The notes under the pieces are model-generated. The model was not told the origin of the DNA. It saw only the letters and a program-made list of their open reading frames with translations, and ran no database searches. From Ruegeria sp. AD91A (GTDB taxonomy: Bacteria > Pseudomonadota > Alphaproteobacteria > Rhodobacterales > Rhodobacteraceae), in the NCBI RefSeq assembly GCF_003443535.1, contig NZ_CP031947.1, positions 558,001-622,000 on the forward strand: 64,000 nt of DNA. Direction: 5' to 3'. Below are positions 44,707 through 63,804 of this stretch, piece after piece (position 1 is the first letter of the stretch; the number at the start of each line of letters is the position of its first letter). A program made the position numbers and the translations under genes.

Positions 44707-44733
44707 CGGGCGCGGCGCGATGGGCCGCACCCG
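44707..44733 (-). other. Intercistronic stem-loop after the binding-protein gene
   Basis: CGGG-x-GCGGC and GCCGC-x-CCCG arms (one mismatch) around a seven-base loop, between the solute-binding protein stop and the permease start. This position is typical for stems that stabilise the upstream binding-protein mRNA or partly stop transcription. Confidence 0.5.
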
Positions 44734-44751
44734 GAGAGAGTGGTTCAGATG

Positions 44752-46922: not shown

Positions 46923-46937
46923 GTGATTCTCCCCCAA

Positions 46938-48710: not shown

Positions 48711-48722
48711 AAGCCTGGGAAA

Positions 48723-49751
48723 ATGTCTGACACAACCACTCAAATGCGGCAGGAGATCAATGAGATTCCCGACGCCGTAGACCGCCTTCTGACCGAGGGC
48801 GCAGATTTGATCGCGCAAACCGCCAACGAGATCCAGACCCGCAACCCGCGGTTTCTGATCTCGGTGGCGCGCGGATCCTCGGATCATGCCTGCAGCTTTC
48901 TGAAATACGCCTCGGAACTGCTACTTGGCTTGCCGATGGCTTCGGTCGGACCGTCGGTCAAGTCTATCTACGGTGTCGACATGCACTGCGAGGATGCGAT
49001 CTGCATCTCTGTTTCACAATCCGGCCAGAGCCCGGATATCGTGCAACTCACGCAGTCGCTCACATCCGGCGGAGCTTACTCGGTCGCGATCACGAACAAC
49101 ACTGCCTCTGCACTGGCCGACGCAGCCACGGCAACGCTGCCAATTCACGCGGGCCCCGAACTGAGCGTGGCGGCGACGAAGACATTCGTGACGTCTCTGG
49201 TCGCCGGGTTGTGGTTGATTGCGCAGGTGAAGCGCGATGATCATTTGTTACGCGCCATCCATGGGCTGCCGGACAGTTTGTCGACTGCAATTGCCTGCGA
49301 CTGGAGCGCCGTGGCGGACGCGGTGGATGGTCGCTCTTTGTTTACACTGGGGCGCGGCATGTCTTTGGCAATTTCCAACGAAGCCGCGTTGAAATTCAAA
49401 GAAACCTGCCAGATTCACGCGGAAAGCTATTCGGCAGCCGAGGTTCTGCACGGCCCTGTTTCCATCGTGGATCAGGGCTTTCCTGTGCTTGCCTTGTCGT
49501 CCGGGGATGCAGCAGAGGACAATCTGGCTGAAGTTGCAGACGCACTGGCGTCCAAAGGCGCTGTGGTTTTCGCCACAACCGGCCGCGTGAAACACGCAAC
49601 AGAACTGCCGCATGTCCGAACGTCCCATTGGATGACGGACCCCATACCAACAATTGCGTCGTTTTATGGAATGGTGGAGAAGGTTGCCACACAACGAGGG
49701 ATTGACCCGGACACACCACGCCATCTGAAAAAAGTAACGGAAACGGTATGA
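48723..49751 (+). CDS. SIS-domain glucosamine-6-phosphate deaminase (NagB-II/AgaS-like)
   Basis: 342 aa, two SIS domains (about 30-160, 185-325) as in the isomerase half of GlmS, but without the glutaminase domain. Features are SVARGSSDHACSFLKYASE, SVSQSGQSPDIVQL and FTLGRGMSLAISNEAALKFKETCQIHAESYSAAEVLHGP, the latter a GlmS-like phosphosugar-binding block. It probably converts glucosamine-6-phosphate to fructose-6-phosphate and ammonia, i.e. the missing NagB function. Overlaps nagA by four bases. Confidence 0.86.
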   Translation: MSDTTTQMRQEINEIPDAVDRLLTEGADLIAQTANEIQTRNPRFLISVARGSSDHACSFLKYASELLLGLPMASVGPSVKSIYGVDMHCEDAICISVSQSGQSPDIVQLTQSLTSGGAYSVAITNNTASALADAATATLPIHAGPELSVAATKTFVTSLVAGLWLIAQVKRDDHLLRAIHGLPDSLSTAIACDWSAVADAVDGRSLFTLGRGMSLAISNEAALKFKETCQIHAESYSAAEVLHGPVSIVDQGFPVLALSSGDAAEDNLAEVADALASKGAVVFATTGRVKHATELPHVRTSHWMTDPIPTIASFYGMVEKVATQRGIDPDTPRHLKKVTETV

Positions 49752-50881
49752 CCAGTTCTACCATCATCTTTGCGGGCGGCCCGATCTTCGATGGCACTGA
49801 ATTGCGTGAAGGATACGCCGCACGGTTCAGAAACGGGCTGTTGGATGCGTTGGTCCCCTTGGATCAGATAGCGCATGACGACCAGATCGAGGATCTGCAT
49901 GGCGACATCCTCAGCCCTGGCTATGCTGATCTGCAGGTGAACGGCGGTGGTGGCGTGATGTTCAACGACGATCCATCGGTTCAGTCACTGACCCAAATCG
50001 CCCGTGCTCATCGCGCGCTGGGTGCGATGAGCATCCTGCCCACCCTGATCACTGACACGGCCGAGAAAACCCGAGCCGCTATTGATTCCGCCATCAAGGC
50101 CGTTCAGACGGGTGTTTCCGGTATTGCGGGCCTGCATCTGGAAGGTCCTCACCTGTCTGAGCGGCGCAAGGGCGCACATGATGCAGCGATGATCCGCCCG
50201 ATGCGGCAAACCGACCTGGAAACTTTGATCGATGCTGCAAAACACCTGCCTGCGTTGATGGTGACGCTGGCGCCCGAAAGTACAACACTGCAGCAAGTTG
50301 AAGCATTGAAGCGTGCGGGGGTGATCGTCTCTTTGGGCCACACGGACGCGCCTTTTGAGACCTGCCTGGCGTTCTCAAGGGCCGGGGCGCAGTGCGCAAC
50401 GCATCTGTTCAATGCGATGAGCCAGCTTGGCAGCCGAGAACCCGGACTGGTTGGCGCGGCGTTATCCTGCGGATCGCTATCGGCGGGCTTGATCGCGGAT
50501 GGTATCCACGTTCATCCCGACACAATGCGGATTGCCTGGGCCGCCAAGCGCGGACCTGGGCGGATTTTTCTTGTCAGCGATGCGATGGCGGTCGCTGGCA
50601 CGTCACTGGCGGAGTTTCAGTTGGAAGGACGCCCCATCCGGCGGGAAAACGGCAGGCTGACGTTAGAGGATGGCACTCTGGCCGGGGCCGATTTGTGCCT
50701 GACAACAGCGGTACAGGTTCTGACGGACCAAGCGGAGATCCCGTTTCAAGAAGCACTCGCAGCAGCAACAAGCGTTCCGTTAGCGATGATTTCCGGCAAG
50801 AGTACAGGACTAAAGCCAGCGCTTTCGCAGATGATACTGATTTCCCCGGATTTGTCCCGGGCCAGACCTGTGCAACCCTGA
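49748..50881 (+). CDS. nagA: N-acetylglucosamine-6-phosphate deacetylase
   Basis: 377 aa amidohydrolase removing acetate from GlcNAc-6-phosphate. Motifs are DILSPGYADLQVNGGGG at the N-terminus, GLHLEGPHLSERRKGAHD (metal Glu), ISLGHTDAPFETCLA (His), ATHLFNAMSQLGSREPGLVGAAL (His) and LVSDAMAVAG (catalytic Asp). Final gene of the plus-strand amino-sugar operon. Its product feeds the SIS deaminase upstream. Confidence 0.93.
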   Translation: MTSSTIIFAGGPIFDGTELREGYAARFRNGLLDALVPLDQIAHDDQIEDLHGDILSPGYADLQVNGGGGVMFNDDPSVQSLTQIARAHRALGAMSILPTLITDTAEKTRAAIDSAIKAVQTGVSGIAGLHLEGPHLSERRKGAHDAAMIRPMRQTDLETLIDAAKHLPALMVTLAPESTTLQQVEALKRAGVIVSLGHTDAPFETCLAFSRAGAQCATHLFNAMSQLGSREPGLVGAALSCGSLSAGLIADGIHVHPDTMRIAWAAKRGPGRIFLVSDAMAVAGTSLAEFQLEGRPIRRENGRLTLEDGTLAGADLCLTTAVQVLTDQAEIPFQEALAAATSVPLAMISGKSTGLKPALSQMILISPDLSRARPVQP

Positions 50882-51205
50882 TCACTTCCGGAGCCAACTA
50901 AACCGCATGTTCCAAGAATGAAACGGATGAACCGAACGTCCTGCCCGCGCAACATTCAGCCGATTTCCGACTGGACCAAACTGACGTGAGACGGGTTGAT
51001 AACAAGATCGGCGTCAACCGGCCCAAATCATCGTTGATCCGACCGGTCGTGCAGCGCGTGCGCGATGTCAGCGCTGCGTCCGTTTACTGGCGGCCAAATT
51101 TCGATTTTTCAAAACTTCGCGAATAGAGCTGTCACCTTTTTGCGGGTGGTCCGCACCGATCTCTCAGCGCATATTTCAGACATAGGACATTTTTCAGGAG
51201 CATGC
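50882..51205. other. Intergenic stretch upstream of the ureidoglycine aminohydrolase gene
   Basis: 324 bases with no convincing gene. The in-frame open extension of the downstream gene back to 51065 has no SD and no homology. No clear hairpin was seen. Confidence 0.55.
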
Positions 51206-52075
51206 ATGACCGCCAAGTATTTTTCGCCACACGGTGGGCATCCTGGTCAGGAGCAATTGCTGACTGACCGCGCCGTATTTACTGACGCTTATGCAGTGAT
51301 CCCAAAGGGAACGATGCGGGATATCGTGACCAGTTTTCTGCCGTTTTGGGAAGACACCCGCTTGTGGGTGATATCACGCCCGCTAAGCGGCTTTGCAGAA
51401 ACCTTTTCGCAATACATCATGGAAGTTCAGCCCGGCGGTGGCTCTGACCGGCCCGAGACCGATCCCGAAGCCGAAGGCGTTTTGTTCGTGGTCGAAGGCA
51501 CAGCGACCTTGACTGCCGACGGCACAACCTATGAGCTGACGCCCGGCGGCTATGCCTACCTGCCCGCTGAATACAATTGGACCTTGCGAAACCGAGGCGG
51601 CGAAATCCTGCGGTTCCATTGGATTCGAAAGGCTTATGAAGCGGTAGAAGGGCTTGACCGCCCAGACGTTCTGGTTCTCAACGAAAACGAGCTCACGCCG
51701 ACGCCGATGCCCGGAACGGACGGCAAATGGGCCACGACTCGCTTTGTCGACCCAAGTGACTTGCGGCACGATATGCACGTGACCGTGGTGACTTTCGAGC
51801 CCGGCGCCGTCATTCCTTTCCTTGAAACACATGTGATGGAACATGGTCTGTATGTTCTTGAGGGAAAGGCCGTTTACAGGCTGAACAATGACTGGGTAGA
51901 GGTCGAGGCCGGCGATTACATGTGGTTGCGCGCGTTCTGCCCACAGGCCTGTTATGCAGGTGGCCCGGGTAAGTTCCGTTACTTGCTGTACAAAGACGTG
52001 AACCGCCATATGGCACTGCGGCCAGGTCCAGCCGCTTACCCGCAGCACCGGCGTCTCAGGACAGCGGCGGAGTAA
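51206..52075 (+). CDS. allE: (S)-ureidoglycine aminohydrolase
   Basis: Bicupin enzyme, 289 aa, converting (S)-ureidoglycine to (S)-ureidoglycolate and ammonia. Two cupin folds: VEGTATLTADGTTYELTPGGYAYLPAEYNWTL-like first half and FEPGAVIPFLETHVMEHGLYVLEGKAVYRLNNDWVEVEAGDYMWLRAF, with the metal-binding H/E/Q and the conserved ALRPG end. ATG at 51206 has AGGAGC just upstream. Its stop overlaps the bhcR stop region by 20 bases on the other strand. It uses the product of allantoate amidohydrolase, which is not in this window. Confidence 0.9.
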   Translation: MTAKYFSPHGGHPGQEQLLTDRAVFTDAYAVIPKGTMRDIVTSFLPFWEDTRLWVISRPLSGFAETFSQYIMEVQPGGGSDRPETDPEAEGVLFVVEGTATLTADGTTYELTPGGYAYLPAEYNWTLRNRGGEILRFHWIRKAYEAVEGLDRPDVLVLNENELTPTPMPGTDGKWATTRFVDPSDLRHDMHVTVVTFEPGAVIPFLETHVMEHGLYVLEGKAVYRLNNDWVEVEAGDYMWLRAFCPQACYAGGPGKFRYLLYKDVNRHMALRPGPAAYPQHRRLRTAAE

Positions 52076-52904
52076 TAGTCCCGCCGATGGCCAGAGTTAA
52101 CTGATGCGCCGCCTCGATGACGGGGCGGCTTAGTCGCTGAATCTCGACTTCGCTGACGCGACTTGTCGGTCCGGACACTGAAATCCCGGCAACCGCCTCT
52201 CGGTTGGTATCGAAGACCGGCGCAGCAATGCACCGCATTCCCGCGTTCTTTTCTTCGTTGTCTATCGAGAAGCCTTGTGCCCGAACCATGGCAAGATCTT
52301 CTTTCAGCGCGGTCGGGCTGGTAATCGACCTGTCCGTGAAGGCCTTTAGTTCTGTCTTGGCCAACAGCCGGTCCAACCGATCTTCATCCATATACGCCAA
52401 CAAAGCTTTCCCGATGCCCGACGCGTGCATCGGAGAAAGCGTGCCCGGAGGGAAAAACGCACGAATACTGGCATGGGTTTCCACCTGGCTCAGGAATAAT
52501 ACCATTCCTTCTTTCTCGACCCCCAGGTTTGCGGTCTCGCCGGTGGCCTCCATCAGCTTTCTCATCACGGGTCGGGCCCGGTCCACAAGGCTGGTGCGAC
52601 GCAGGAAGCGCGAGCCGATTACGAACGCACGAGGACCGATGTGCCAGACCTGCTCGTCGTGATCGAACTCGACAAGACCCCTGCCCTCAAGTGTAACGAG
52701 TATTCGGTAAACTGTGGCGGGCGACTGGCCCATTTCGTCGGATAGCGCGGTTAACGCCTTGCCCTGCGCTTCACTCAAATACTCAAAAACTTCCATCGCA
52801 CGGTCGAGAGACTTGATCGTGTTTTGCGTTGTCTTGTCGTCCCATCCCCTTGGTCTTCCACGGGCTTTTCTGCGGACTTCGCGAGTATTGTCTTGAGAAT
52901 CCAT
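52056..52904 (-). CDS. bhcR: IclR-family regulator BhcR
   Basis: 282 aa. N-terminal winged helix (about 35-95, SLDRAMEVFEYLSEAQGKALTALSDEMGQSPATVYRILVTLEGRGLVEFD) and the IclR effector domain (about 110-270, GMRCIAAPVFDTNREAVAGISVSGP). It is divergent from bhcABCD, the arrangement known for BhcR, an IclR protein that senses glyoxylate and controls the beta-hydroxyaspartate cycle. Assignment is by family, position and the complete bhc operon next door. Confidence 0.9.
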   Translation of the reverse strand: MDSQDNTREVRRKARGRPRGWDDKTTQNTIKSLDRAMEVFEYLSEAQGKALTALSDEMGQSPATVYRILVTLEGRGLVEFDHDEQVWHIGPRAFVIGSRFLRRTSLVDRARPVMRKLMEATGETANLGVEKEGMVLFLSQVETHASIRAFFPPGTLSPMHASGIGKALLAYMDEDRLDRLLAKTELKAFTDRSITSPTALKEDLAMVRAQGFSIDNEEKNAGMRCIAAPVFDTNREAVAGISVSGPTSRVSEVEIQRLSRPVIEAAHQLTLAIGGTITPPLS

Positions 52905-52935
52905 AAAAACCCTTTGATCATTCGTGAAAGACTAA

Positions 52936-53014
52936 TTCATCATATGAAAAATATAAGGCACTGACAATTATAAATTAAATTTGAAGCGTAGCATTTTGAA
53001 AGTCTTTTTCAAAA
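52936..53014. promoter_or_regulatory. Inverted repeats in the bhcR-bhcA intergenic region (candidate BhcR site)
   Basis: TTTTGAAA, five bases, TTTCAAAA at 52994-53014 is a perfect 8-5-8 dyad, 60 bases before the bhcA ATG. A second, smaller dyad (TTCAT-CAT-ATGAA) lies at 52936-52948. Symmetry, AT-richness and location between divergent genes fit operator sites for the IclR regulator. Confidence 0.5.
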
Positions 53015-53073
53015 ATATATCAAGCTGAGTGACGGGTGTTTATCGTGTGGTCAACGACGGAAGGAGACCATCC

Positions 53074-54264
53074 ATGAGCTTTCAAAATCCCGTTTTCATC
53101 CCGGGTCCGACCAACATCCCGGAAAGCCTGCGCAAGGCCTGTGATATGCCCACGATCGACCATCGCTCACCGCTGTTCGGGCAAATCCTGCACCCCGCGC
53201 GTGCTGGCGTTCAGAAAGTCCTGAAGAGCAACAGCGCCCAAATCTTCATCTTCCCGTCGACCGGAACCGGAGGCTGGGAGACCGCACTGACCAATACCCT
53301 GTCGGCCGGTGACAAGGTTCTGGCAGCGCGCAACGGCATGTTCAGCCATCGCTGGATCGATATGTGCCAGCGTCACGGTCTGAATGTCGAGATCGTCGAA
53401 ACCCCTTGGGGCGACGGGCTGCCAGCTGATCGTTACGAAGAGATTTTGACCGCCGACACAAGCCACGAAATCAAGGCTGTTCTTGCCACGCACAACGAAA
53501 CGGCAACCGGTGTGAAATCGGATATTGCGGCTGTACGCAAGGCGCTGAATGCCGCCCGTCACCCTGCCATGCTGTTCGTCGATGGTGTTTCATCGATCGG
53601 GTCCATGGATTTCCGTTTTGACGAATGGGGCGTCGACGTGGCCGTCACGGGTTCGCAGAAAGGGTTCATGCTGCCTGCGGGTCTTGCCATCGTCGGGTTT
53701 AGCCAGAGAGCGATGGACGCGACCAAGACGGACACCCTGCCCCGCACCTTCTTTGATGTTCATGACATGGCCCAGGGGTACGCCAACAACGCCTATCCCT
53801 ATACGCCTGCCGTTGGTTTGATGAATGGCCTCAACCAGGCCTGCGATATGTTGCTGAGTGAAGGTTTGGAAAACGTCTTTGCCCGGCATCACCGTATTGC
53901 CGAAGGAGTACGTGCCGCCGTGGGTGCGTGGGGGCTGGACCTTTGTGCGGCGAACCCGTCGGTATACTCTGACACCGTCAGCGCGATCCGAACGCCAAAC
54001 GGCTTCAATGCGACGGGTATAGTCACCCATGCCGCTGAAAAATACGGCGTTGCCTTCGGTGTCGGCCTTGGTGAAGTCGCAGGCAAAGTATTCCGTATCG
54101 GACATCTGGGCAGCCTGACGGATGTCATGGCTCTGTCCGGGATTGCCACCGCTGAAATGTGCATGGTCGACCTGGGCCTGAACATCCAGCTGGGCTCCGG
54201 CGTGGCGGCTGCGCAGGAATATTATCGCGGTCATCCCGGTGCAGTTCAGAAGGATGCTGCGTGA
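53074..54264 (+). CDS. bhcA: L-aspartate:glyoxylate aminotransferase (beta-hydroxyaspartate cycle)
   Basis: 396 aa class V aminotransferase. It makes glycine from glyoxylate with aspartate as donor. PLP Lys196 lies in VTGSQKGFMLPAG; the N-terminus FIPGPTNIPESLRKACDMPTIDHRS and PSTGTGGWETALTN are typical of alanine/serine-glyoxylate aminotransferase relatives. AAGGAGA precedes ATG 53074. First gene of bhcABCD; the identity rests on the operon as well as on sequence, since serine-glyoxylate aminotransferase is the close alternative. Confidence 0.92.
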   Translation: MSFQNPVFIPGPTNIPESLRKACDMPTIDHRSPLFGQILHPARAGVQKVLKSNSAQIFIFPSTGTGGWETALTNTLSAGDKVLAARNGMFSHRWIDMCQRHGLNVEIVETPWGDGLPADRYEEILTADTSHEIKAVLATHNETATGVKSDIAAVRKALNAARHPAMLFVDGVSSIGSMDFRFDEWGVDVAVTGSQKGFMLPAGLAIVGFSQRAMDATKTDTLPRTFFDVHDMAQGYANNAYPYTPAVGLMNGLNQACDMLLSEGLENVFARHHRIAEGVRAAVGAWGLDLCAANPSVYSDTVSAIRTPNGFNATGIVTHAAEKYGVAFGVGLGEVAGKVFRIGHLGSLTDVMALSGIATAEMCMVDLGLNIQLGSGVAAAQEYYRGHPGAVQKDAA

Positions 54265-55232
54265 TGAAGGATTGCAACATGTACATCCCAACCTACGAGG
54301 ACACGCTCGAAGCCCACAATCGGATCGAGCCCTTTATCCGCCGTACCCCGGTCCGAACCTCGGACTACCTGAATGAATTGGCCGGGGCGCAGCTGTTCTT
54401 CAAATGTGAGAACTTTCAGGAACCGGGTGCCTTCAAGGTGCGTGGGGCAGCAAATGCCGTGTTTGGCCTTGACGACGAACAAGCCAGGAAAGGCGTTGCA
54501 ACCCATTCCTCGGGCAACCACGCCTCGTGCCTGTCCTATGCGGCGATGAAGCGGGGCATACCGTGCAACGTCGTCATGCCACGCACAGCGCCGCAGGCCA
54601 AGAAAGACACGGTGCGGCGCTATGGCGGGAAGATCACGGAATGTGAGCCCTCAACCTCGTCGCGCGAGGCCACGTTTGCCGAGGTTCAGGCCGCCACGGG
54701 CGGGGATTTTGTCCACCCCTACAATGATCCGCGCGTGATAGCCGGGCAAGGCACCTGCTCGCGCGAGTTCATCGAACAGACCGATGGTCTGGACGCGGTA
54801 GTCGCCCCCATCGGTGGTGGCGGCATGGTATCAGGCACTTGCCTGACATTGTCTACTCTGGCCCCTGAAACCGCGATCATCGCCGCAGAACCTGAACAGG
54901 CCGACGATGCCTATCGCAGCTTCAAGGCCGGCCACATCATAGCGGATGACGCACCCAAGACGATTGCCGACGGGCTGCTGGTTCCGCTTAAGGACCTCAC
55001 CTGGCATTTCGTGTCGAACCACGTCTCCGAAATCTACACGGCTTCCGAGCAAGAGATCATCGACGCGATGAAACTAACGTGGAAACACCTACGGATCGTG
55101 ATGGAGCCATCTTCGGCCGTTCCGCTGGCTACGATCCTGAAAAACCCGGACGCTTTCAAAGGCAAGCGGGTCGGCCTGATCATAACCGGGGGCAATGTCG
55201 ATCTGGACAAGCTGCCCTGGCTGAACGCGTAA
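54264..55232 (+). CDS. bhcB: beta-Hydroxyaspartate dehydratase
   Basis: 322 aa fold-type II PLP enzyme resembling threonine dehydratase/serine racemase. PLP Lys59 in FQEPGAFKVRGA, phosphate/substrate loop SSGNHA, and tetraglycine-type VAPIGGGGMVSG. In the cycle it eliminates water from (2R,3S)-beta-hydroxyaspartate to give iminosuccinate. ATG 54264 overlaps the bhcA stop by one base; an ATG at 54279 with AAGGA upstream is an alternative start five codons later. There is no C-terminal regulatory ACT domain. Confidence 0.92.
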   Translation: MKDCNMYIPTYEDTLEAHNRIEPFIRRTPVRTSDYLNELAGAQLFFKCENFQEPGAFKVRGAANAVFGLDDEQARKGVATHSSGNHASCLSYAAMKRGIPCNVVMPRTAPQAKKDTVRRYGGKITECEPSTSSREATFAEVQAATGGDFVHPYNDPRVIAGQGTCSREFIEQTDGLDAVVAPIGGGGMVSGTCLTLSTLAPETAIIAAEPEQADDAYRSFKAGHIIADDAPKTIADGLLVPLKDLTWHFVSNHVSEIYTASEQEIIDAMKLTWKHLRIVMEPSSAVPLATILKNPDAFKGKRVGLIITGGNVDLDKLPWLNA

Positions 55233-55259
55233 CATCAATCCCGACATAGGAATACGGAA

Positions 55260-56423
55260 ATGAAAGATATGACCAATCTCGACAATTTCGAAGTAGGCTT
55301 TGACATTCCGGCCAAGCCCGGAATGGATGAAGCAGATATCCAGACTCCCAGCCTGATTCTGGATCTCGACGCGCTAGAACGCAACATCAAGAAGATGGGC
55401 GACTATGCCAGGGCGCATGGCATGCGCCACCGCGTGCATGGAAAAATGCACAAATCGGTAGACGTGGCCAAGTTGCAGGAGAAGATCGGAGGCGCTGTTG
55501 GCGTTTGCTGCCAGAAAGTTTCAGAGGCCGAAGTGTTCGTGCGCGGTGGCATCAAGGACGTTCTGGTGTCGAACCAGGTGCGTGACCCCGCCAAGATCGA
55601 CCGTCTTGCCAGCCTGCCAAAGCTGGGCAGCCGCATCATCGTTTGCGTCGACGATCTGGACAACGTTGCAGACCTTTCCGGCGCGGCGGTGGATCATGGA
55701 ACACAGCTGGAAATCTTCATCGAGATCGACTGCGGTGCCGGGCGTTGCGGCGTGACAACGACCCCGGAAGTGATCGAGATTGCCAAAGCAGTAGAAGCTG
55801 CTGACAACCTGAAGTTCACCGGGATCCAGGCCTACCAGGGGGCCATGCAGCACCTTGACAGCTATGAAGCGCGCAAGGAAAAGCTCGACACCGCCATCGC
55901 CATGGTGAAGGACGCCGTCGAGGGCCTCAAAGCTGAAGGCATCGAGTGCGAATTGGTCTCGGGCGGTGGCACCGGTTCATACTACTTCGAGTCCAACTCG
56001 GGCGTGTACAACGAACTGCAATGCGGGTCCTACGCGTTCATGGATGCCGACTACGGCCGCATCCTGGACAAGGATGGAAACCGGATCGATCAGGGCGAGT
56101 GGGAAAACGCCTTCTTCATTCTGACCAGCGTCATGAGCCACACCAAGGCGGATAAGGCGATCGTAGATGCAGGCCTCAAGGCTCAATCGGTGGACAGCGG
56201 CCTGCCGGTTGTCTTTGGCCGCGACGATGTCGAATACATCAAATGTTCGGACGAACACGGCATCGTCATGGATCCGAACGGTGCGCTGAAGGTCAACGAC
56301 AAGCTCAAGCTGGTTCCGGGACACTGCGACCCAACCGCAAATGTACACGATTGGTATGTCGGTGTTCGCAACGGCAAGGTCGAGACCGTCTGGCCCGTGT
56401 CCGCCCGCGGACGCGCTTATTGA
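55260..56423 (+). CDS. bhcC: beta-Hydroxyaspartate aldolase
   Basis: 387 aa fold-type III PLP enzyme of the D-threonine aldolase family. Condenses glycine with glyoxylate to beta-hydroxyaspartate. PLP lysine is in RVHGKMHKS (Lys62), and VSGGGTGSYYF plus a C-terminal PGHCDPT metal motif (His-Cys-Asp) match the family. It starts 27 bases after bhcB and is followed by a stem-loop before bhcD. Confidence 0.92.
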   Translation: MKDMTNLDNFEVGFDIPAKPGMDEADIQTPSLILDLDALERNIKKMGDYARAHGMRHRVHGKMHKSVDVAKLQEKIGGAVGVCCQKVSEAEVFVRGGIKDVLVSNQVRDPAKIDRLASLPKLGSRIIVCVDDLDNVADLSGAAVDHGTQLEIFIEIDCGAGRCGVTTTPEVIEIAKAVEAADNLKFTGIQAYQGAMQHLDSYEARKEKLDTAIAMVKDAVEGLKAEGIECELVSGGGTGSYYFESNSGVYNELQCGSYAFMDADYGRILDKDGNRIDQGEWENAFFILTSVMSHTKADKAIVDAGLKAQSVDSGLPVVFGRDDVEYIKCSDEHGIVMDPNGALKVNDKLKLVPGHCDPTANVHDWYVGVRNGKVETVWPVSARGRAY

Positions 56424-56472
56424 TCTGAACTTGCTCTGTTTGGGAGGGCTGGCTCGGAAGCAGCCAGACAGC

Positions 56473-56514
56473 CGCCCGCGTGTATGCTCTCCTTCCGGCA
56501 GGGGCACGCGGGCG
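56473..56514 (+). other. Stem-loop between bhcC and bhcD
   Basis: Perfect 10-bp arms CGCCCGCGTG and CACGCGGGCG around a 22-base loop, 26 bases before the bhcD ATG. No T-run follows, so it is more likely an mRNA-processing or stability element than a full terminator. Confidence 0.5.
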
Positions 56515-56539
56515 CACGAATGTTTGATTGGAGAAAGAA

Positions 56540-57505
56540 ATGCTGATCGTACCCGAGCGTGAAATCGCTGACCTTATGACCCGACAAGCGGCTTTTGACG
56601 CGGTCGAACAGGTCTTTGCTGCAATGGCGTCCGGCGACGCCTACAACTTCCCTGTCGTGCGTGAAGCCATCGGGCACGAAGATGCACTATACGGCTTCAA
56701 GGGTGGATTTGACCGCGCTGGCCTGACGCTTGGACTGAAGGCGGGCGGCTATTGGCCAAACAATCTGGAAAAACGCGGGCTGATCAACCACCAGTCCACG
56801 GTTTTTCTTTTCGACCCCGACACTGGCAAGCCATCTGCGATGGTCGGCGGCAACCTTCTGACGGCCCTTCGAACGGCGGCAGCATCTTCGGTATCGATCA
56901 AGCATCTCGCACGTACGGACGCCAGGGTCATAGGCATGATTGGCGCTGGCCACCAGGCAGCCTTTCAGCTTCGCGCGGCATTGGAGCAGCGCGATTTTGA
57001 CAAGGTCATTGGTTGGAACTACCACCCCGAAATGCTGCCGAATATCGAAAAGGTCGCCAATGAAGCAGGTGTTCCGTTCCAGGCGGTCAAGCTTGACGAC
57101 ATGACTGAGGCGGATGTGATTATTTCGATCACTTCGGCCTTTGCACCCTCACTGATGGCGAACCATGTCAGCCCCGGAACTCATATCGCCTGCATGGGCA
57201 CGGACACAAAAGGAAAACAGGAAGTTGAAACCGCCCTTCTGGCCAAGGCGAGCGTGTTCACGGACGAAGTCGCGCAATCCGTCAGCATCGGCGAAGCGCA
57301 GCACGCCGTGGCCGAAGGCCTGATCCAAGAAAGCGATGTGGCGCAGCTTGGCGCGGTCATCAACGGCACCAATCCGGGCCGGATATCGGACAATCAGATC
57401 ACGCTGTTCGATGGCACGGGTGTGGGCCTTCAAGATCTTGCGGTCGCCGCGTCCGTGGTTGACCTCGCCGTTCGGAAAGGGATCGCGATCGAGGTCGATT
57501 TCTGA
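56540..57505 (+). CDS. bhcD: Iminosuccinate reductase
   Basis: 321 aa, ornithine cyclodeaminase/mu-crystallin family. NAD(P)-binding VIGMIGAGHQA (about 131-140) and a KGGFDRAGLTLGLKAGGYWP N-terminal region. It reduces iminosuccinate to aspartate, closing the cycle. ATG at 56540 is directly preceded by GGAGAAAGAA; an in-frame TTG at 56528 is unlikely. Last bhc gene, converging on the permease gene with a shared terminator. Confidence 0.91.
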   Translation: MLIVPEREIADLMTRQAAFDAVEQVFAAMASGDAYNFPVVREAIGHEDALYGFKGGFDRAGLTLGLKAGGYWPNNLEKRGLINHQSTVFLFDPDTGKPSAMVGGNLLTALRTAAASSVSIKHLARTDARVIGMIGAGHQAAFQLRAALEQRDFDKVIGWNYHPEMLPNIEKVANEAGVPFQAVKLDDMTEADVIISITSAFAPSLMANHVSPGTHIACMGTDTKGKQEVETALLAKASVFTDEVAQSVSIGEAQHAVAEGLIQESDVAQLGAVINGTNPGRISDNQITLFDGTGVGLQDLAVAASVVDLAVRKGIAIEVDF

Positions 57506-57606
57506 AGCCAGACGGCAACACCTCCTTGGGCATTGTCTCGGCGGTCCTTTTGGGCGAAGAGCTTTTGACAGCAGATCTCCATTAAATGGTGACAAAACAA
57601 TGAAAC

Positions 57607-57639
57607 GCGGCGCGCCAAGGCGCGCCGCTTCATGTTTTT
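57607..57639. terminator. Bidirectional intrinsic terminator
   Basis: Perfect 10-bp GC stem GCGGCGCGCC/GGCGCGCCGC with a 2-base centre, then a TTTTT run on the plus strand and a T-rich flank on the minus strand. It lies between bhcD (plus) and the converging permease gene (minus). Confidence 0.8.
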
Positions 57640-57671
57640 ACCAGGACGATCAGTGTATCAGGTCGAACGCA

Positions 57672-59096
57672 TCAGACGTGGTCGTCTTGCTCGATGGACC
57701 CAAGACCATGACCGGCCATGCCGCCCGAGACCTCTTCCGTCGCTTCGTCGGAAAGTTCTTCGGGAAGAACAAGATTCAATACAATGGCGATGACGGCGGC
57801 GGGCAGGATTCCTGATGTCGCCAGAACCTTCAATGTGCCGGGCAAGTATTGCAACGCGTTGGGTTCCAGCTGCAAACCCAGCCCAAGACTCAGGGCGATT
57901 GCAAAAATCACCATGTTGCGCCGGTTCCAGTTCACGTCCGACAGCATCGAGACACCTGCCGCCACAACCATGCCGAACATCACGATCACGCCCCCACCGA
58001 GAACCTCAATCGGAATGGACGAGATTATCGCCCCGATTTTGGGAATAAGCCCGCATACGATCAGGAAAACCGCACCGATGGTCACGACCATTCGGCTCAT
58101 GACGCCGGTCATCGCAATCAATCCGACATTCTGACTGAACGACGTGTTTGGCAGCGCTCCAAACAGGCCAGAGATCGCAGTGCCAAGACCATCGGCATAG
58201 GTCGCGCCCTGAATTTCCCTGTCGGTTGCTTCTCGCCCAGCCCCCCCTTTGGTGATACCGGATACGTCCCCAACGGTTTCAACCGCGGAAACAAAGGACA
58301 TTGCACAGAAACCGATGATGGCCGCGACCGAGAATTCAATACCGAAATGCAACGGGTTCGGCAGCGCAAAGGATGCCGCGTTCCCGACGTTGCCCAGGTG
58401 GACCTGGCCAAGTAGGAACGCCACGGCGTATCCGACCAGCAGACCGATCAGAACAGCCGACACGGACAGCATGCCCCGTGTAAAGAATTTCAGGCCAAGC
58501 GTGACCACGATTACAGTTCCGGCCATGAACCAGTTCAGACCCGAGCCGTATTCCTCGGTCCCAATCGCAGGAACACCCCCCGCGGCATACTGAATGCCGA
58601 CCTTCACAAGTGCCAAGCCAATCATGGTCACCACAAGGCCCGTAACCAGTGGCGGAAGAGCAAAGCGAATGCGTCCAATGAACAGCCCAAGGAAGGCGTG
58701 AAACAAACCACCGACAACAACCCCGCCCATCAGGACGGCAATGGCGTCAACGCCCTTCCCCACCACCAGTGGAATCATGATCGGGATAAAGGCAAACGAT
58801 GTTCCCTGCACGATAGGCAGCCGGGCACCGACCGGGCCCATGCCAACAGATTGAAACAACGTGGCGACACCCGCAAAGAACATCGACATCTGGATCATAT
58901 AGATCATCTGCGGGAAATCGGGGCTGTTCGAGCCAAAACCGAAACCAGCCGCACCACAAACGATAATGGCTGGCGTGACGTTTGACACGAACATCGCCAG
59001 TACATGCTGAATTCCCAGTGGCACTGCCTTTAGCAGCGGCGGAGTATAATTCGGATCGCGGAGTTGTTCCGGCGTTCCGATGGATGCATCTGACAT
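57672..59096 (-). CDS. NCS2-family nucleobase (urate/xanthine) permease
   Basis: 474 aa, about 14 membrane segments. N-terminal LLKAVPLGIQHVLAMFVSNVTPAIIVCGA, central FGIEFSVAAIIGFCAMSFVSAVETVGDVSGITKGG and LFGALPNTSFSQNVGLIAMTGV are NCS2/UraA/XanQ signatures (the first with the conserved His, the second with the catalytic Glu region). Downstream of allantoinase and ureidoglycolate lyase genes, so a urate, xanthine or related purine uptake role is likely. SD GGAGGAAAG before the ATG. Confidence 0.9.
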   Translation of the reverse strand: MSDASIGTPEQLRDPNYTPPLLKAVPLGIQHVLAMFVSNVTPAIIVCGAAGFGFGSNSPDFPQMIYMIQMSMFFAGVATLFQSVGMGPVGARLPIVQGTSFAFIPIMIPLVVGKGVDAIAVLMGGVVVGGLFHAFLGLFIGRIRFALPPLVTGLVVTMIGLALVKVGIQYAAGGVPAIGTEEYGSGLNWFMAGTVIVVTLGLKFFTRGMLSVSAVLIGLLVGYAVAFLLGQVHLGNVGNAASFALPNPLHFGIEFSVAAIIGFCAMSFVSAVETVGDVSGITKGGAGREATDREIQGATYADGLGTAISGLFGALPNTSFSQNVGLIAMTGVMSRMVVTIGAVFLIVCGLIPKIGAIISSIPIEVLGGGVIVMFGMVVAAGVSMLSDVNWNRRNMVIFAIALSLGLGLQLEPNALQYLPGTLKVLATSGILPAAVIAIVLNLVLPEELSDEATEEVSGGMAGHGLGSIEQDDHV

Positions 59097-59149
59097 TTGG
59101 TCTTTCCTCCCTTGAAGTTCGCAGCCGGCTCCTCACCCTGCAACGCACC

Positions 59150-59635
59150 TCATTCTGTGATTTCAAAAGCCTCCCCGAACCAATGCTCTTCGAGGTTGGT
59201 CCCGGATCCAATTCGGTCGACCACCGCAAAAAGTCCGGGCGCATGAAGCGGGATCAGAACGCCATGCCAAGTGTTGCGATGATAATTCACACCCTGTCCG
59301 GGCGCTGTTTTGAAGGCGATTGGCTGTCCCGGCGTGCCGTCTTCATCCGGGGCCACAACCACGACAAAAGGTTTATCCGACAAAGGCAAAAAAGCCTGGC
59401 TGCCATCAGGATGGCGTTCCACCATTTCCAATTTGATCGGCAAGCAGAAGACTTCGGACTGAAACACGCTGATACCCGCGTGCCCATCATGGAAATCCAA
59501 CGCGGCCCGGTCGTGATAGCGCGCGCATTTACCCTGATTAATGAGTTTGTCCACCTGGCCAGCCGCCTCGATGACATCGCCGAAAGGTGCAAATGCCTCT
59601 GACGTCAAAGGTCGGAGCTTCAAGACAGCCGTCAT
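59150..59635 (-). CDS. allA: Ureidoglycolate lyase
   Basis: 161 aa, matching the AllA family: LRPLTSEAFAPFGDVIEA N-terminus, VVAPDEDGTPGQPIAFKTAPGQGVNYHRNTWHGVLIPL with the conserved His pair. Splits (S)-ureidoglycolate to glyoxylate and urea, giving the substrate of the bhc pathway. ATG overlaps the upstream allantoinase stop by four bases (ATGA). Confidence 0.92.
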   Translation of the reverse strand: MTAVLKLRPLTSEAFAPFGDVIEAAGQVDKLINQGKCARYHDRAALDFHDGHAGISVFQSEVFCLPIKLEMVERHPDGSQAFLPLSDKPFVVVVAPDEDGTPGQPIAFKTAPGQGVNYHRNTWHGVLIPLHAPGLFAVVDRIGSGTNLEEHWFGEAFEITE

Positions 59636-61062
59636 TCCGCGAACTTCTCAATCAGGCGCAATTCGGCAATGCGCTCAACCTGACGGCAGGCTTCGGCAAA
59701 TTCCCTGTCACGGTCATTGTCGACACGACGGCGAAAGGCTTCCAGAATGCTGGCTTTCGTGTTGTCCTTGACCGCGATGATGAAGGGAAAGCCAAACTTG
59801 GTTGTGTAGGCTTCGTTCAACGCCGTGAACGTCGCGCGCTCTTCATCGGTCAGCATGTCCAGGCCCGCACCGGCCTGTTCCGCAGTACTTTCCTTGGTCA
59901 GGCGGCCGGCGGCGGCCAGCTTGCCCGCCAGGTCCGGGTGGGCTGTCAGAACGCCAAGGCGCTGCTCGGACGAGGCAGAACGGAATATACGCGCCAGCGC
60001 GTTGTGGACACCAGCAGCATTGTCATGCGTCGGGCCCAATTCCAGTTTATACGCACCTTCGGCAATCCACGGGCTGTGCTCGAACACGCCACCGAATTCT
60101 GACACAAAGGTTGGTCGATCCATTTCGGACGGGGTCAAACCTTGCACAGGTGGGTGTTCCTTGGCCCAATGATCGGCAATCTGCTCGCGCGTTGCGAACC
60201 AGACACCGTCGTGTTTCCTGAAGTAGTCAAGTGCGCGTTTCAGCGCCATGGCACGACCTGGGCGACCAATCAGACGGCAGTGCAACCCGATCGAAAGCAT
60301 CTTGGGCGCGCCCGCCTCACCTTCGGCATAGAGCATGTCAAAGCTGTCTTTCAGATAGCTTTCGAACTGTTCCCCATTGGTGAATCCAGCCTGGATTGCA
60401 AAGCGCATATCGTTGCAGTCCAGTGTATAGGGCATGATCAGTTGATCCTTGCCCCCTGCCTTGGTCCAGTATGGCAGATCGTCGGCGTAGCTGTCGGCGA
60501 TATAGGCAAAGTCGCCTTCCTCGGCGGCCAGTTCGACCGTTTTCATCGAACAGCGGCCCGTATACCAACCACGGGGCGGCTGACCCGTAACCTCTGTGTG
60601 CAGCCGGATTGCTTCGCGGATTTGGGCGCGCTCTTCTTCGGCGTCCATGTCCTTGTGTTCAATCCACTTCAAACCGTGGCTGGCTATCTCCCATCCTGCG
60701 TGCTTCATCGCCGCAACCTGGGCAGGAGCACGGGCCAAGGCGGTTGCAACGCCATAGACTGTAACAGGCAGATCCTGCAGAAGGTGATGCACGCGCCAGA
60801 ACCCCGCGCGGCTGCCGTATTCGTAGATCGATTCCATGTTCCAATGCCGTTGCCCAGGCCAAGGGGCGGCTCCGGTGATCTCGGACAGAAACGCTTCGGA
60901 TGCGGCATCGCCGTGCAGAACGTTGTTTTCACCGCCCTCTTCGTAGTTCAGCACGATCTGAATTGCGATTTTGGCATTGGCCGGCCAGTTTGCTTTGGGA
61001 ACTTGCCCACCGTAACCGGTCATGTCTCGTGGATAAGGCTTCACATCGGTTTCCTTCTTCAT
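59632..61062 (-). CDS. puuE: Allantoinase PuuE fused to OHCU decarboxylase
   Basis: 476 aa fusion. Residues about 1-310 are a PuuE allantoinase of the polysaccharide-deacetylase type (PRDMTGYGGQ, RHWNMESIYEYGSRAGFWR, WEIASHGLKWIEHKDM). Residues about 320-476 are an OHCU decarboxylase domain with HPDLAGKLAAAGRLTKESTAEQ and FGFPFIIAVKDN. It converts OHCU to allantoin and then to allantoate. ATG at 61062 is preferred; the TTG at 61089 lacks an SD. Divergent from the hydroxyisourate hydrolase gene, coupled to allA. Confidence 0.92.
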   Translation of the reverse strand: MKKETDVKPYPRDMTGYGGQVPKANWPANAKIAIQIVLNYEEGGENNVLHGDAASEAFLSEITGAAPWPGQRHWNMESIYEYGSRAGFWRVHHLLQDLPVTVYGVATALARAPAQVAAMKHAGWEIASHGLKWIEHKDMDAEEERAQIREAIRLHTEVTGQPPRGWYTGRCSMKTVELAAEEGDFAYIADSYADDLPYWTKAGGKDQLIMPYTLDCNDMRFAIQAGFTNGEQFESYLKDSFDMLYAEGEAGAPKMLSIGLHCRLIGRPGRAMALKRALDYFRKHDGVWFATREQIADHWAKEHPPVQGLTPSEMDRPTFVSEFGGVFEHSPWIAEGAYKLELGPTHDNAAGVHNALARIFRSASSEQRLGVLTAHPDLAGKLAAAGRLTKESTAEQAGAGLDMLTDEERATFTALNEAYTTKFGFPFIIAVKDNTKASILEAFRRRVDNDRDREFAEACRQVERIAELRLIEKFAE

Positions 61063-61190
61063 GAATTGATCAATACCCCAGATAATCAAATATGTTTTTC
61101 AAAAAATACTGAAAGCAGCTTCCCACAGACTGCCTTTGCCCCTTGGGGCGAAAACAGACTAGTAACTGTATAACTTGAGGAGTAGCGCAA

Positions 61191-61544
61191 ATGACCGGTT
61201 ACCTTACAACACATGTTCTGGATACGGCGCGAGGGTGTCCCGCCGAAGGATTGAAGATCGAACTGTTCCGCATTGAAGGTGCAAACCGCGAGTTGCTGAA
61301 AACTCTGGTCACCAATGACGACGGCAGGACCGACAAACAAATTCTGCCCGAGGCAGAGTTTTCAACAGGTGAATACGAACTTGTCTTCCATGCCGGAGAT
61401 TACCTTGATGCCTCTGGCACACCACCTGAAAACCCACGCTTTCTGAACGTCATCCCGATCCGCTTTGGAATGTCCGAACACTCGCATTACCACGTGCCTC
61501 TGCTGCTTTCACCCTTCGGATACGCGACCTATCGCGGCAGCTGA
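61191..61544 (+). CDS. uraH: 5-Hydroxyisourate hydrolase (transthyretin-like)
   Basis: 117 aa. Signatures [21 protein letters not shown] at the N-terminus, [11 protein letters not shown] and the C-terminal tetrapeptide YRGS, which supplies active-site residues. It hydrolyses 5-hydroxyisourate, the urate hydroxylase product, to OHCU. SD GAGGAG lies upstream. Lies between the divergent allantoinase and the converging LysR gene. Confidence 0.93.
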
Positions 61545-61549
61545 GCGTC

Positions 61550-62470
61550 CTACCGGGACGTATTTGCTGCCGCAATCGACGACCCGATGCGTTCTATTAT
61601 GAATTCCATGAAAAGCCGCGTTTTGGGGTCCTGCATACGGCGGTGCGTAAACAGACATGCCATCTGAATTGGTTCCGGCGGCGTCTTCTCTGCCACCGGA
61701 ACCAGATTTCCCGCCTTGAGATGCTGCGCAATCTCAAATTTCGGCTTCAACGCGATGCCATGCCCGCCAAGCGCCCAGTCTGTCAGCACGTCGCCGTCGT
61801 CTGACTCGAAACGTCCGGAAACCCGGAACCGTTTTGGCCCCGCATCGGTCCTCAAGAGCCATTGAAACTCGGTCGCGCCGGGGAACCGCAAATTGAGACA
61901 CTCGTGCTCATCAGCGATTAACGCGTCACCGCTTTCGGGCATCCCACGTTTTTTGATGTATTTCGGAGATGCACAAAGCACCCTTTCGACATCGGCGATC
62001 TTGCGAATACGCAAGTTGCTGTCTTCTGGCTGACCCAGGAAAAAAGCCAGGTCCAGACCCTCGGTTGTCAGATCAACCTTTCGGTCCGTCAGCCTCAGCC
62101 TGACGTTCACCTCGGGGTACTCGGCAAGAAACTTTGGGACCTGCGGTGCTATCAACCGACGCCCAACCCCCAAGGGCGCGGCGACATAGAGTGACCCTTT
62201 CAGGTTCTCGGTAAGATTGACGATCTGGGCTTCGGCACTTTCGACTGCTTCTAGGATCTCTGCTGCGCCACGATAGAAAGATTTTCCCTGCTCGGTGGGC
62301 GTCAGGCTGCGTGTCGTGCGTTGGAACAAACGCACGCCAAGATGCTCTTCCAATTGCGATATACGCGCCGACGTAACAGCTGGCGAAACCCTCAAATCAC
62401 GGCCCGCGGCAGACATGCTGCCCAGTTCGTAGACCCGGACAAAGGTTCTGATGTTATCAAGGTAGGACAT
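61550..62470 (-). CDS. LysR-family regulator, probably of urate catabolism
   Basis: 306 aa. N-terminal winged helix (about 1-65, FVRVYELGSMSAAGRDLRVSPAVTSARISQLEEHLGVRLFQRTTRSLTPTEQG) and a periplasmic-binding-like effector domain. ATG at 62470 is preferred over an upstream in-frame start because MSYLDNIRTF is the conventional LysR N-terminus. It is divergent from the urate hydroxylase gene, hence a likely regulator of it; effector possibly urate or allantoin. Confidence 0.88.
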   Translation of the reverse strand: MSYLDNIRTFVRVYELGSMSAAGRDLRVSPAVTSARISQLEEHLGVRLFQRTTRSLTPTEQGKSFYRGAAEILEAVESAEAQIVNLTENLKGSLYVAAPLGVGRRLIAPQVPKFLAEYPEVNVRLRLTDRKVDLTTEGLDLAFFLGQPEDSNLRIRKIADVERVLCASPKYIKKRGMPESGDALIADEHECLNLRFPGATEFQWLLRTDAGPKRFRVSGRFESDDGDVLTDWALGGHGIALKPKFEIAQHLKAGNLVPVAEKTPPEPIQMACLFTHRRMQDPKTRLFMEFIIERIGSSIAAANTSR

Positions 62471-62490
62471 TTTTTTGCATTTTTTGATAC

Positions 62491-62509
62491 TGCTTGGTCT
62501 TTGCCAGCA
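62491..62509. promoter_or_regulatory. Candidate LysR box between the LysR gene and puuD
   Basis: TGCTTGGTCTTTGCCAGCA: imperfect dyad with a T-N11-A core (62494 to 62506), the classic LysR-type recognition layout. It is about 20 bases upstream of the LysR ATG and 60 upstream of the puuD ATG. Confidence 0.4.
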
Positions 62510-62571
62510 ATACCAGAACAAAACACACTCGCATAGAGTAACCGGAACTATAGAATCTTAGGAGCAAAGCC

Positions 62572-63804
62572 ATGTATGACTTGGCCGTAATGTGGGAGTG
62601 GATCGCCTTTTCCGTCCGTTGGCTGCATGTGATCACCGCGATGGCGTGGATTGGTGCGTCATTCTACTTTATCGCGCTGGACCTCATGTTGAAGCCAAAC
62701 CCTGCCTTGCCGGACGGGGCCTACGGCGAAGAATGGGAAGTACATGGCGGCGGTTTCTACCACACCGTCAAGTATCTGGTTGCGCCCTCGCGCATGCCCG
62801 AGCACCTGACCTGGCACAAATGGCAGAGTTACACGACCTGGCTGTCGGGCGCGGCGTTGCTCATGATCATATATTGGGTCGGGGGCGAGTTGTTCCTGCT
62901 TGATCCGACCAAAGTGGACCTGGCGCTGTGGCAGGGGATCCTGATTTCTGGCGGATCGCTGACCATTGGCTGGCTGGTCTACGACCAGATGTGCAAATCG
63001 AAGCTGAGTGATCACCCGACCGTTCTGATGCTGCTGTTGTTCGTGATCCTGGTGATCATGTCGTGGGGTTACAACCAGATCTTCACCGGTCGCGCCGCGC
63101 TTTTGCATCTTGGAGCCTTCACTGCGACAATCATGACGGCCAACGTGTTCTTTCAGATCATGCCGAACCAACGGATCGTGGTCGAAGACCTCAAGGCCGG
63201 TCGGACGCCTGATGCCAAATACGGCAAGATCGCCAAGGTACGATCCACGCATAACAACTACCTGACTTTGCCGGTCGTTTTCCTGATGCTGTCGAACCAC
63301 TATCCGCTTGCTTTCGGCACCGAGTATTCCTGGATCATCGCCAGCCTGATCTTTCTGACGGGCGTCACCATCCGTCACTACTTCAACACGATGCATGCAA
63401 CCGGGAAAGGCCCGCACTGGACTTGGGGGGTGACGGTTCTGCTAATGGTCGTGATCGCCTGGCTGTCTTCGGTGAGAAACACTGAGACATGGGAGGACGC
63501 CGAAGCGCGTGACCTGACGCCATACGAACAGAAATTTGCGTCAGCCGCGGGCTTCGAAGACGCCTATGACACGGTCTTGGGTAATTGCTCGATGTGCCAC
63601 GCCCGCGAGCCGGTGTACGACACCATGAAATGGGCCCCGAAGAAGGTCTATCTTGAGACACCCGGCGATGTCGCCCGCAACGCCGACCAAATCTATCTGC
63701 AAGCCGGCATCAGCCATGCAATGCCACCACCATCTGCAGTGCAAATGGATGAAGAGGCACGCCAAACCATCATCGCATGGGTGCGTGAGGTCAGAGACCA
63801 ATAG
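62572..63804 (+). CDS. puuD: Membrane urate hydroxylase PuuD with cytochrome c domain
   Basis: 410 aa. About eight membrane helices (first 305 residues) with RWLHVITAMAWIGASFYFIALD at the N-terminus, then a C-terminal cytochrome c domain with heme motif CSMCH (339-343) and a downstream axial Met in AMPPPSA. Oxidises urate to 5-hydroxyisourate in the membrane and passes electrons to the respiratory chain, rather than producing peroxide like cofactor-free uricase. SD AGGAGC before ATG 62572. Terminator at 63832 follows. Confidence 0.93.
   Translation: MYDLAVMWEWIAFSVRWLHVITAMAWIGASFYFIALDLMLKPNPALPDGAYGEEWEVHGGGFYHTVKYLVAPSRMPEHLTWHKWQSYTTWLSGAALLMIIYWVGGELFLLDPTKVDLALWQGILISGGSLTIGWLVYDQMCKSKLSDHPTVLMLLLFVILVIMSWGYNQIFTGRAALLHLGAFTATIMTANVFFQIMPNQRIVVEDLKAGRTPDAKYGKIAKVRSTHNNYLTLPVVFLMLSNHYPLAFGTEYSWIIASLIFLTGVTIRHYFNTMHATGKGPHWTWGVTVLLMVVIAWLSSVRNTETWEDAEARDLTPYEQKFASAAGFEDAYDTVLGNCSMCHAREPVYDTMKWAPKKVYLETPGDVARNADQIYLQAGISHAMPPPSAVQMDEEARQTIIAWVREVRDQ

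Follow-up and report, generated by a model that had tools for sequence, protein, structure and literature searches.

Linkage of purine degradation genes with the beta-hydroxyaspartate cycle in Ruegeria sp. AD91A and its recurrence among related genera

So far, the beta-hydroxyaspartate cycle has been presented as a means of using algal glycolate while conserving carbon. This study concerns a stretch of 64,000 nucleotides from Ruegeria sp. AD91A (contig NZ_CP031947.1, positions 558,001 to 622,000; hereafter the window), in which the genes of this cycle, bhcABCD, and its regulator gene bhcR stand in one block with genes for the degradation of purines. The closest described system is the cycle of Paracoccus denitrificans, which was studied for glycolate and glyoxylate and whose BhcR is an IclR-type regulator responsive to glyoxylate; the accessible part of this source (PMC11323563) names purines and allantoin as a general source of glyoxylate and mentions no linkage to purine genes. 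The same part of PMC11323563 describes AllR of Escherichia coli as an IclR-family regulator whose DNA binding is weakened by glyoxylate.

The window and P. denitrificans are alike in the four cycle enzymes, the divergent bhcR, a palindrome in the shared promoter and a BhcR pocket identical at 8 of 9 positions. Purine genes nonetheless stand directly downstream of the cycle in the P. denitrificans genome: in strain HAMBI_2443, the genes that come after bhcR and bhcABCD, on the same strand as bhc, encode a permease for nucleobases (PF00860), an 8-oxoguanine deaminase (698 bits, cut-off 532), 5-hydroxyisourate (HIU) hydrolase and PuuD. The AllR allantoin/glyoxylate regulon of E. coli ties ureide degradation and glyoxylate assimilation under an IclR-family regulator, and control of this kind may also operate in the window; the two differ in that E. 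coli uses glyoxylate carboligase, with loss of CO2, and AllR, whereas the window encodes the carbon-conserving cycle and BhcR. As carboligase was not found above its cut-off in the genera sampled here, the block may be seen as working like the AllR/gcl regulon and not as a member of it. A report of a bhc-purine linkage was not found in the literature searched, which left out most papers naming the cycle; none is given in the accessible portions of PMC11323563, PMC11166783, PMC12599240, PMC10499878 and PMC12282265, and portions of PMC9603854 and PMC3793230 were the sources for the purine enzymes. The new element would be a purine-glyoxylate regulon in which the hydroxyaspartate cycle replaces carboligase, the E. 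coli-type logic being already known.

We consider it likely that the block is a purine-to-oxaloacetate module, probably under BhcR in both halves, with a cycle that is probably shared with glycolate. Gene content, recurrence, the carboligase result and the promoter motif were observed and the reactions are known family chemistry; the flux of urate into the cycle and the binding of BhcR at purine promoters are inferred. Xanthine dehydrogenase, PuuD, HIU hydrolase, OHCU decarboxylase, allantoinase, (S)-ureidoglycine aminohydrolase (UAH) and ureidoglycolate lyase (UGL) would convert purines to glyoxylate, urea and ammonia, and BhcABCD would then convert two glyoxylate to one oxaloacetate with no carbon lost. 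BhcR would probably govern both halves via one palindrome with the core TTTTTCAAAA, located in the bhcR-bhcA, allantoinase-HIU hydrolase and UAH promoters. The hydroxyaspartate cycle would stand in the place of carboligase, following the logic of the E. coli allantoin-gcl regulon under AllR, and would probably serve glycolate as well instead of being reserved for purines. If true, such a module couples the use of organic nitrogen to carbon-efficient assimilation; and if bhc genes are associated with purine degradation more often than with glycolate oxidase, as they are in the present sample, urate, xanthine and allantoin are an overlooked carbon input.

The window proteins were scored against curated NCBIfam cut-offs, with Pfam for PuuD and LysR. 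The initial annotation had claimed a single block holding the purine and bhc genes, and this was confirmed, since every named gene was present between 51,203 and 63,804 and above its curated cut-off (PuuD and LysR by Pfam). All four Bhc enzymes exceeded curated equivalog cut-offs, which predicts membership in the cycle, and the predicted urate-to-glyoxylate set is complete for PuuD, HIU hydrolase, OHCU decarboxylase, allantoinase, UAH and UGL. In a structure comparison, which covered BhcC and BhcD of the four cycle enzymes, the best solved relatives were 6QKB (D-3-hydroxyaspartate aldolase, 697 bits) and 6RQA (iminosuccinate reductase, 469.5 bits), respectively. The pathway as listed in the initial annotation was correct in its genes and too narrow in extent, as a second LysR gene, xdhA, xdhB, xdhC and a second permease gene continue beyond the window end on the same contig, as they do in Ruegeria sp. 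THAF33. With xdhABC next to the block, a putative xanthine-to-oxaloacetate route is therefore encoded in one stretch.

Recurrence of the link across the family

To see whether the link recurs, 150 genomes from this family were examined, each at least 90% complete and almost all from different genera. BhcC was above its cut-off in 60 of the 150 genera, PuuD in 144 and UGL in 141. In 25 of the 60 BhcC genera UGL was encoded no more than 10 kb from bhcC, rising to 27 at 20 kb; the counts for PuuD were 21 and 24, respectively. For comparison, within 20 kb of bhcC the best GlcD match was found in 0/60 genera (one at 25 kb), malate synthase G in 1/60 and the best acetolactate-synthase-like match in 1/60, and at 4 Mb per genome a given gene would be expected there by chance in about 0.6 of the 60. 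The link counts are lower bounds, as contigs ending near bhcC can only lower them, and second copies were counted among the matches listed. The neighbourhood check suggested in the initial annotation therefore came out in favour of conservation (27/60 against 0-1/60 for the three comparison genes), and the link was also kept in the four loci with the BhcC nearest to that of the window (L108-L111), so that it is not an accident of this genome. These data support a bhc-purine link that is not accidental. The mere co-occurrence of bhc and purine genes was discarded as evidence, being uninformative when purine genes are nearly universal.

A tree built from the bhc proteins of 61 loci, 8 of which were too short to be labelled, requires 12 changes of the link; supported branches force at least 6 of them, and as few link changes were obtained in 2 of 500 shuffles. 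A locus was regarded as linked on the tree when any of five purine genes lay within the fetched stretch, and G091 and G077 were scored as unlinked because their purine genes fall just outside it. The link has therefore been inherited within clades yet gained or lost repeatedly.

The arrangement of the junction was compared in two sets of loci, namely 80 named loci, which are biased to relatives of the window because they were chosen by similarity to its BhcC, and an even sample of 76 fetched loci. In the named loci, purine genes lay downstream of bhcC in 34 and upstream in 6 (38 distinct). The window order was also found in Leisingera, Pacificoceanicola and Palleronia sediminis, and without the permease in Fulvimarina (Hyphomicrobiales). 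In Palleronia caenipelagi the whole purine block is inverted onto the bhcR side, where ureide genes are also located in two Frigidibacter and in a locus titled Limibaculum sediminis (now Thermohalobaculum); in Paracoccus WLY502 and a Nitratireductor metagenome-assembled genome, the purine genes are split over both sides. In the window itself, the initial annotation had placed the purine genes on one side of bhc, which holds for those beyond bhcD and fails for UAH, which lies on the bhcR side. UAH directly adjoins bhcR in 16 of the 76 sample loci (window excluded) and 16 of the 80 named loci, and stands within the purine operon in Defluviimonas and in the genomes G095, G122 and G023.

Three sample genera have, immediately after UAH in a purine cluster, a solo BhcC-like gene, and bhcABD is missing from the locus. 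BhcB was over its cut-off in 0/3 of these genomes, in which BhcA and BhcD were not searched genome-wide, and in 1 of the 14 searched genomes with a solo or partial bhcC. For two solo BhcC-like proteins, the nearest solved structure was BhcC (6QKB), ahead of D-threonine aldolases. If true, the solo aldolase in line with UAH would represent a shorter, undescribed glyoxylate outlet.

Several of these results speak against the purine-to-oxaloacetate module. In 33 of the 60 BhcC genera, some of whose loci are on short contigs, neither UGL nor PuuD was found within 20 kb of bhcC, and nearly every genus of the family has PuuD and UGL, whether or not it carries bhc. Wherever UGL lies within 10 kb (25 cases), it is on the same side of bhcC and in the same relative orientation, and the even sample has purine genes downstream of bhcC in 25 loci and upstream in 1 (within the fetched stretch); much of the recurrence is therefore due to common descent. 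Only 6 changes are forced by the tree, which does not separate gain from loss. The initial annotation had proposed a dedicated route for urate or allantoin, of which the functional link is well supported by the recurrence; the word dedicated is too strong, because PuuD is found in 144 of 150 genera, whether bhc is there or not, the same genome also encodes a GlcD-like protein and malate synthase G, and 33 of the 60 genera are unlinked at 20 kb.

BhcR and a shared promoter box

The window BhcR passes its equivalog cut-off and its gene is divergent to bhcA. The pocket of BhcR-type regulators, in IclR numbering, is formed by T143, A146, S154, M220, G160, I161, D212, S239 and S241 (Table 1 of PMC11323563, accessible part), and the window protein, in an alignment read by hand, has S for T at 143 as its one difference from P. 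denitrificans BhcR among these nine positions. A palindrome-constrained motif search over 113 non-redundant of 119 bhcR-bhcA regions gave AttTTTTcgAAAAaaT, and the related window core, TTTTTCAAAA, occurs at 51105, 53005 and 61095 in three promoters of the cluster; a fourth window copy, at 39488, lies within another region. This core has 22 copies genome-wide, 3 of which are inside the 12.7-kb cluster (P ~4e-5, for a pattern picked after the sites were seen), and of the three occurrences of the longer TTTTTCAAAAAWW in 4.4 Mb, two are within the cluster. In P. denitrificans, TATTTTTCAGAAAAAT lies between bhcR and bhcA; for this region, the accessible part of PMC11323563 describes binding by BhcR and a potential palindrome that may correspond to TATTTTTCAGAAAAAT.

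The box was called at p ≤ 0.05 against shuffles, using 199 shuffles in the main count and 99 in an earlier count. Allantoinase-HIU hydrolase regions were fetched for 40 of 40 candidates without BhcC and for 20 of 24 BhcC-bearing unlinked ones, a group that counts solo or partial BhcC of at least 490 bits. Of the purine clusters without BhcC (L195-L234), 31 of 40 gave a divergent allantoinase-HIU hydrolase region, and the 199-shuffle set is 30 after one row without a usable allantoinase sequence was dropped. With 199 shuffles, this promoter carried the box in 15/24 linked, 7/17 BhcC-bearing unlinked and 4/30 BhcC-less genomes; the corresponding numbers were 12/24, 4/17 and 3/31 with 99 shuffles, and 8/24, 4/17 and 3/31 for the exact core. 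The three solo-bhcC loci, counted separately, had it in 1/3. Taken together, 22 of 41 BhcC-bearing genomes carried the box against 4 of 30 BhcC-less genomes (one-sided Fisher p = 4e-4). The BhcC-less clusters are otherwise like the block in their core of UGL, allantoinase-UraD, HIU hydrolase and PuuD, and differ in having no bhc and rarely the box (4/30). Elsewhere, the box was found upstream of UAH in 20% of 51 regions, between LysR and puuD in 8% of 40, upstream of pbuX in 0/40, upstream of UGL in 4% of 57 and in 3% of 157 random pieces.

These rates have to be read together with observations that count against a BhcR regulon spanning both halves. In a relatedness-aware pair test, the association of the box was not significant (2.0 pairs agree, 0.7 disagree), and the linked allantoinase-HIU hydrolase promoters are more AT-rich than those of the other groups. 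The box also occurs in within-operon regions, upstream of bhcC (16% of 155) and bhcD (11% of 141), and it is missing in front of the permease and HIU hydrolase genes of P. denitrificans. The third full-length box of the own genome (C1:673206) precedes genes that look, by eye, like MarR- and glyoxalase-type genes. As a marker of linkage the box was accordingly upheld only in part, the relatedness-aware test being not significant, and the third box as a marker of another glyoxylate gene was not supported, its neighbours having been judged by eye.

The strongest alternative is that the purine promoter box serves another regulator, unrelated to BhcR, such as the LysR proteins or an unknown factor; this is a real possibility that we rate somewhat below the probable. 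It agrees with the box in BhcC-less genomes, with the outcome of the pair test and with the two LysR genes within the cluster, and is opposed by the fit of the box to a model trained on the bhcR-bhcA regions, as well as by its low rate between LysR and puuD and its absence upstream of pbuX. Overall, the shared promoter box hints at common control of the bhc and purine genes, and shared BhcR control is likely in the Ruegeria lineage and unproven in general. In a wider and more tentative view, which may well not hold, BhcR would be a general glyoxylate sensor switching on ureide degradation and the cycle, with purines as a natural substrate in many Rhodobacterales, including P. denitrificans, and with the coupling reduced in some genera to a BhcC-like aldolase and UAH.

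Sources and outlets of glyoxylate

Glyoxylate carboligase was above its cut-off in none of the 150 genera (best 354 bits, cut-off 711), and 1 of 14 control genomes, presumably E. coli, exceeded it. In the absence of carboligase over the cut-off in 150 genera, the cycle is therefore a plausible net-assimilation route for ureide glyoxylate, and carboligase was for the same reason not supported as the purine partner in genera without bhc. Urease alpha was above its cut-off in 120 of the 150 genera, own genome included. A GlcD-like protein (E ≤ 1e-100) was found in 146 genera, including the own genome, none above the curated cut-off; loss of glycolate oxidase was on these grounds not supported as the cause of the link, and glycolate is a likely second source of glyoxylate. 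Malate synthase G, above its cut-off in 132 of the 150 genera and in the own genome, is predicted as a likely second sink.

Three points in this part of the evidence are unfavourable to the purine-to-oxaloacetate module. The carboligase result is a matter of score cut-off, as weaker relatives (best 354 bits against 711), taken here as acetolactate synthases, occur in 150/150 genera, and the criteria were unequal, GlcD matches below the cut-off being accepted and carboligase matches not (in the own genome, 448 of 568 and 330 of 711 bits, respectively). The own genome encodes both the GlcD-like protein and malate synthase G. Lastly, AllC (allantoate amidohydrolase) was above its cut-off in none of 15 genomes, that of the window included, in a search that did not cover allantoicase. 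The window UAH also scores above the threshold of NF040771, a model titled 'bifunctional allantoicase/(S)-ureidoglycine aminohydrolase', and the allantoate step rests on this database name because no AllC was over the cut-off.

It is unlikely that purine glyoxylate is consumed mainly by malate synthase with acetyl-CoA, with the cycle only as overflow or detoxification. The wide occurrence of malate synthase G, own genome included, would fit this, as would the 75 of 150 genera without a BhcC-like protein of at least 490 bits, among which 66 PuuD sites occur in genomes that also encode UGL; against it, malate synthase is near bhcC in 1/60 genera and purine genes in 27/60, and by established pathway chemistry the route needs acetyl-CoA, which urate does not supply. 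Still less probable are two independent catabolic islands co-inherited on the same replicon, the cycle for glycolate and the purine genes for nitrogen supply, since the near-universal purine genes with or without bhc, the GlcD-like protein in 146/150 genera, the uniform orientation within 10 kb pointing to shared descent and the carriage of related clusters on plasmids are outweighed by the link in 27/60 genera against 0-1/60 for other genes, at least 6 link changes on the bhc tree, purine genes on the other side or split in 6/80 named loci, the 3 genera in which UAH is immediately followed by a solo bhcC-like gene and the shared promoter box.

Locus layout, variant loci and neighbouring genes

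The purine-to-oxaloacetate block runs from UAH through bhcR, bhcABCD, pbuX, UGL, the allantoinase fusion, HIU hydrolase and LysR to PuuD, on the strands given in Table 1. The starts of UAH, bhcA, bhcB and the fusion gene were set from Ruegeria sp. THAF33 genes or lengths. UAH and bhcR are convergent with a 20-bp overlap, and with the THAF33-based starts the end of bhcA and the start of bhcB overlap by 1 nt. The window sits on the 743,267-base contig C2 of a 4.4-Mb assembly of two contigs, and its BhcC is 97% identical to that of strains named R. lacuscaerulensis, R. atlantica and R. arenilitoris. In THAF33 the entire block is on an 811-kb plasmid, with 92.8% identity.

Table 1. Coordinates of the block genes, candidate promoter boxes and solo BhcC-like genes (window positions unless a locus is named)
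Feature	Position	Strand	Evidence or remark
TTTTTCAAAA box, ~90 bp upstream of UAH	51105..51114	+	candidate BhcR site, weakest of three; not ranked first there by position-weight model
(S)-ureidoglycine aminohydrolase (UAH), cupin	51203..52075	+	NF008376 528 bits (cut-off 338); NF040771 505 bits
bhcR, IclR-type regulator	52056..52904	-	NF045644 401 bits (cut-off 350)
TTTTTCAAAAA box, bhcR-bhcA divergent promoter	53005..53015	+	motif search/scan
bhcA, L-aspartate--glyoxylate aminotransferase	53074..54264	+	NF045640 754 bits (cut-off 650)
bhcB, beta-hydroxyaspartate dehydratase	54264..55232	+	NF045641 581 bits (cut-off 550)
bhcC, 3-hydroxy-D-aspartate aldolase	55260..56423	+	NF045642 758 bits (cut-off 690)
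bhcD, iminosuccinate reductase	56540..57505	+	NF045643 591 bits (cut-off 500)
pbuX-type NCS2 xanthine permease	57672..59096	-	TIGR03173 425.5 bits (cut-off 414)
Ureidoglycolate lyase (UGL; glyoxylate + urea)	59150..59635	-	NF002952 269 bits (cut-off 260); PF04115
Allantoinase (PuuE) - OHCU decarboxylase (UraD) fusion	59632..61044	-	TIGR03212 502 bits (cut-off 425); TIGR03164 206.5 bits (cut-off 96)
TTTTTCAAAAA box, divergent allantoinase / HIU-hydrolase promoter	61095..61105	+	motif search/scan
5-Hydroxyisourate (HIU) hydrolase	61191..61544	+	TIGR02962 126 bits (cut-off 87)
LysR-type regulator, divergent from puuD	61550..62521	-	PF03466 + PF00126
PuuD urate hydroxylase	62572..63804	+	PF06181 (Urate_ox_N) 433 bits; THAF33 counterpart annotated PuuD
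Solo BhcC-like aldolase downstream of UAH	L092:5530-7661, L101:5683-7640, L106:12304-14213		purine clusters without bhcABD at locus

Variant bhc loci were observed within Ruegeria and beyond. Nine other Ruegeria loci (L127, L129, L138, L139, L144, L146, L153, L173 and L177) carry a second bhc type, with BhcA ~60% and BhcR 41-45% identical, and the tested purine genes were not found within the fetched stretch of these second-type loci. The second-type bhc of R. denitrificans lies between PutA-like/rhomboid genes and inositol-phosphatase, LysR and MTHFR genes, and KLH11 has two bhc loci. In L090, L085 and L165, bhcBCD stands with no recognised bhcA or bhcR alongside, and in the Marivita loci L128, L133, L142 and L154, UAH precedes bhcA with no bhcR recognised in between. 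A glyceraldehyde-3-phosphate dehydrogenase-like gene closely follows bhcD in 20/76 and 11/80 loci, where it perhaps has a gluconeogenic role; in Sulfitobacter faviae, bhcD is followed by genes for an AmiS/UreI-family transporter, a family that includes urea channels, and glyceraldehyde-3-phosphate dehydrogenase.

Among the neighbours of the loci, families 5, 13 and 16 were set aside, as they look like antisense frames in GC-rich DNA. After xdhABC and the second permease, at G000:C2:629739-635336 (L193:9739-15336), there are genes for a hydantoinase/caprolactamase-like pair, a HisC-like aminotransferase and an EutA-like protein, for which further cyclic-amide catabolism is possible. On the other side, window positions 40897-50881 contain sugar ABC transporter genes and genes for MurNAc-6-phosphate etherase, a BadF-type ATPase, GntR and SIS proteins, with nagA as the end gene in THAF33, which looks like an amino-sugar island adjoining the purine block. 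Further away, at 12218-18771, genes for COX1, COX2 and COX3 domain proteins lie beside HlyD and MFS genes, a putative terminal oxidase adjoining an export pair.

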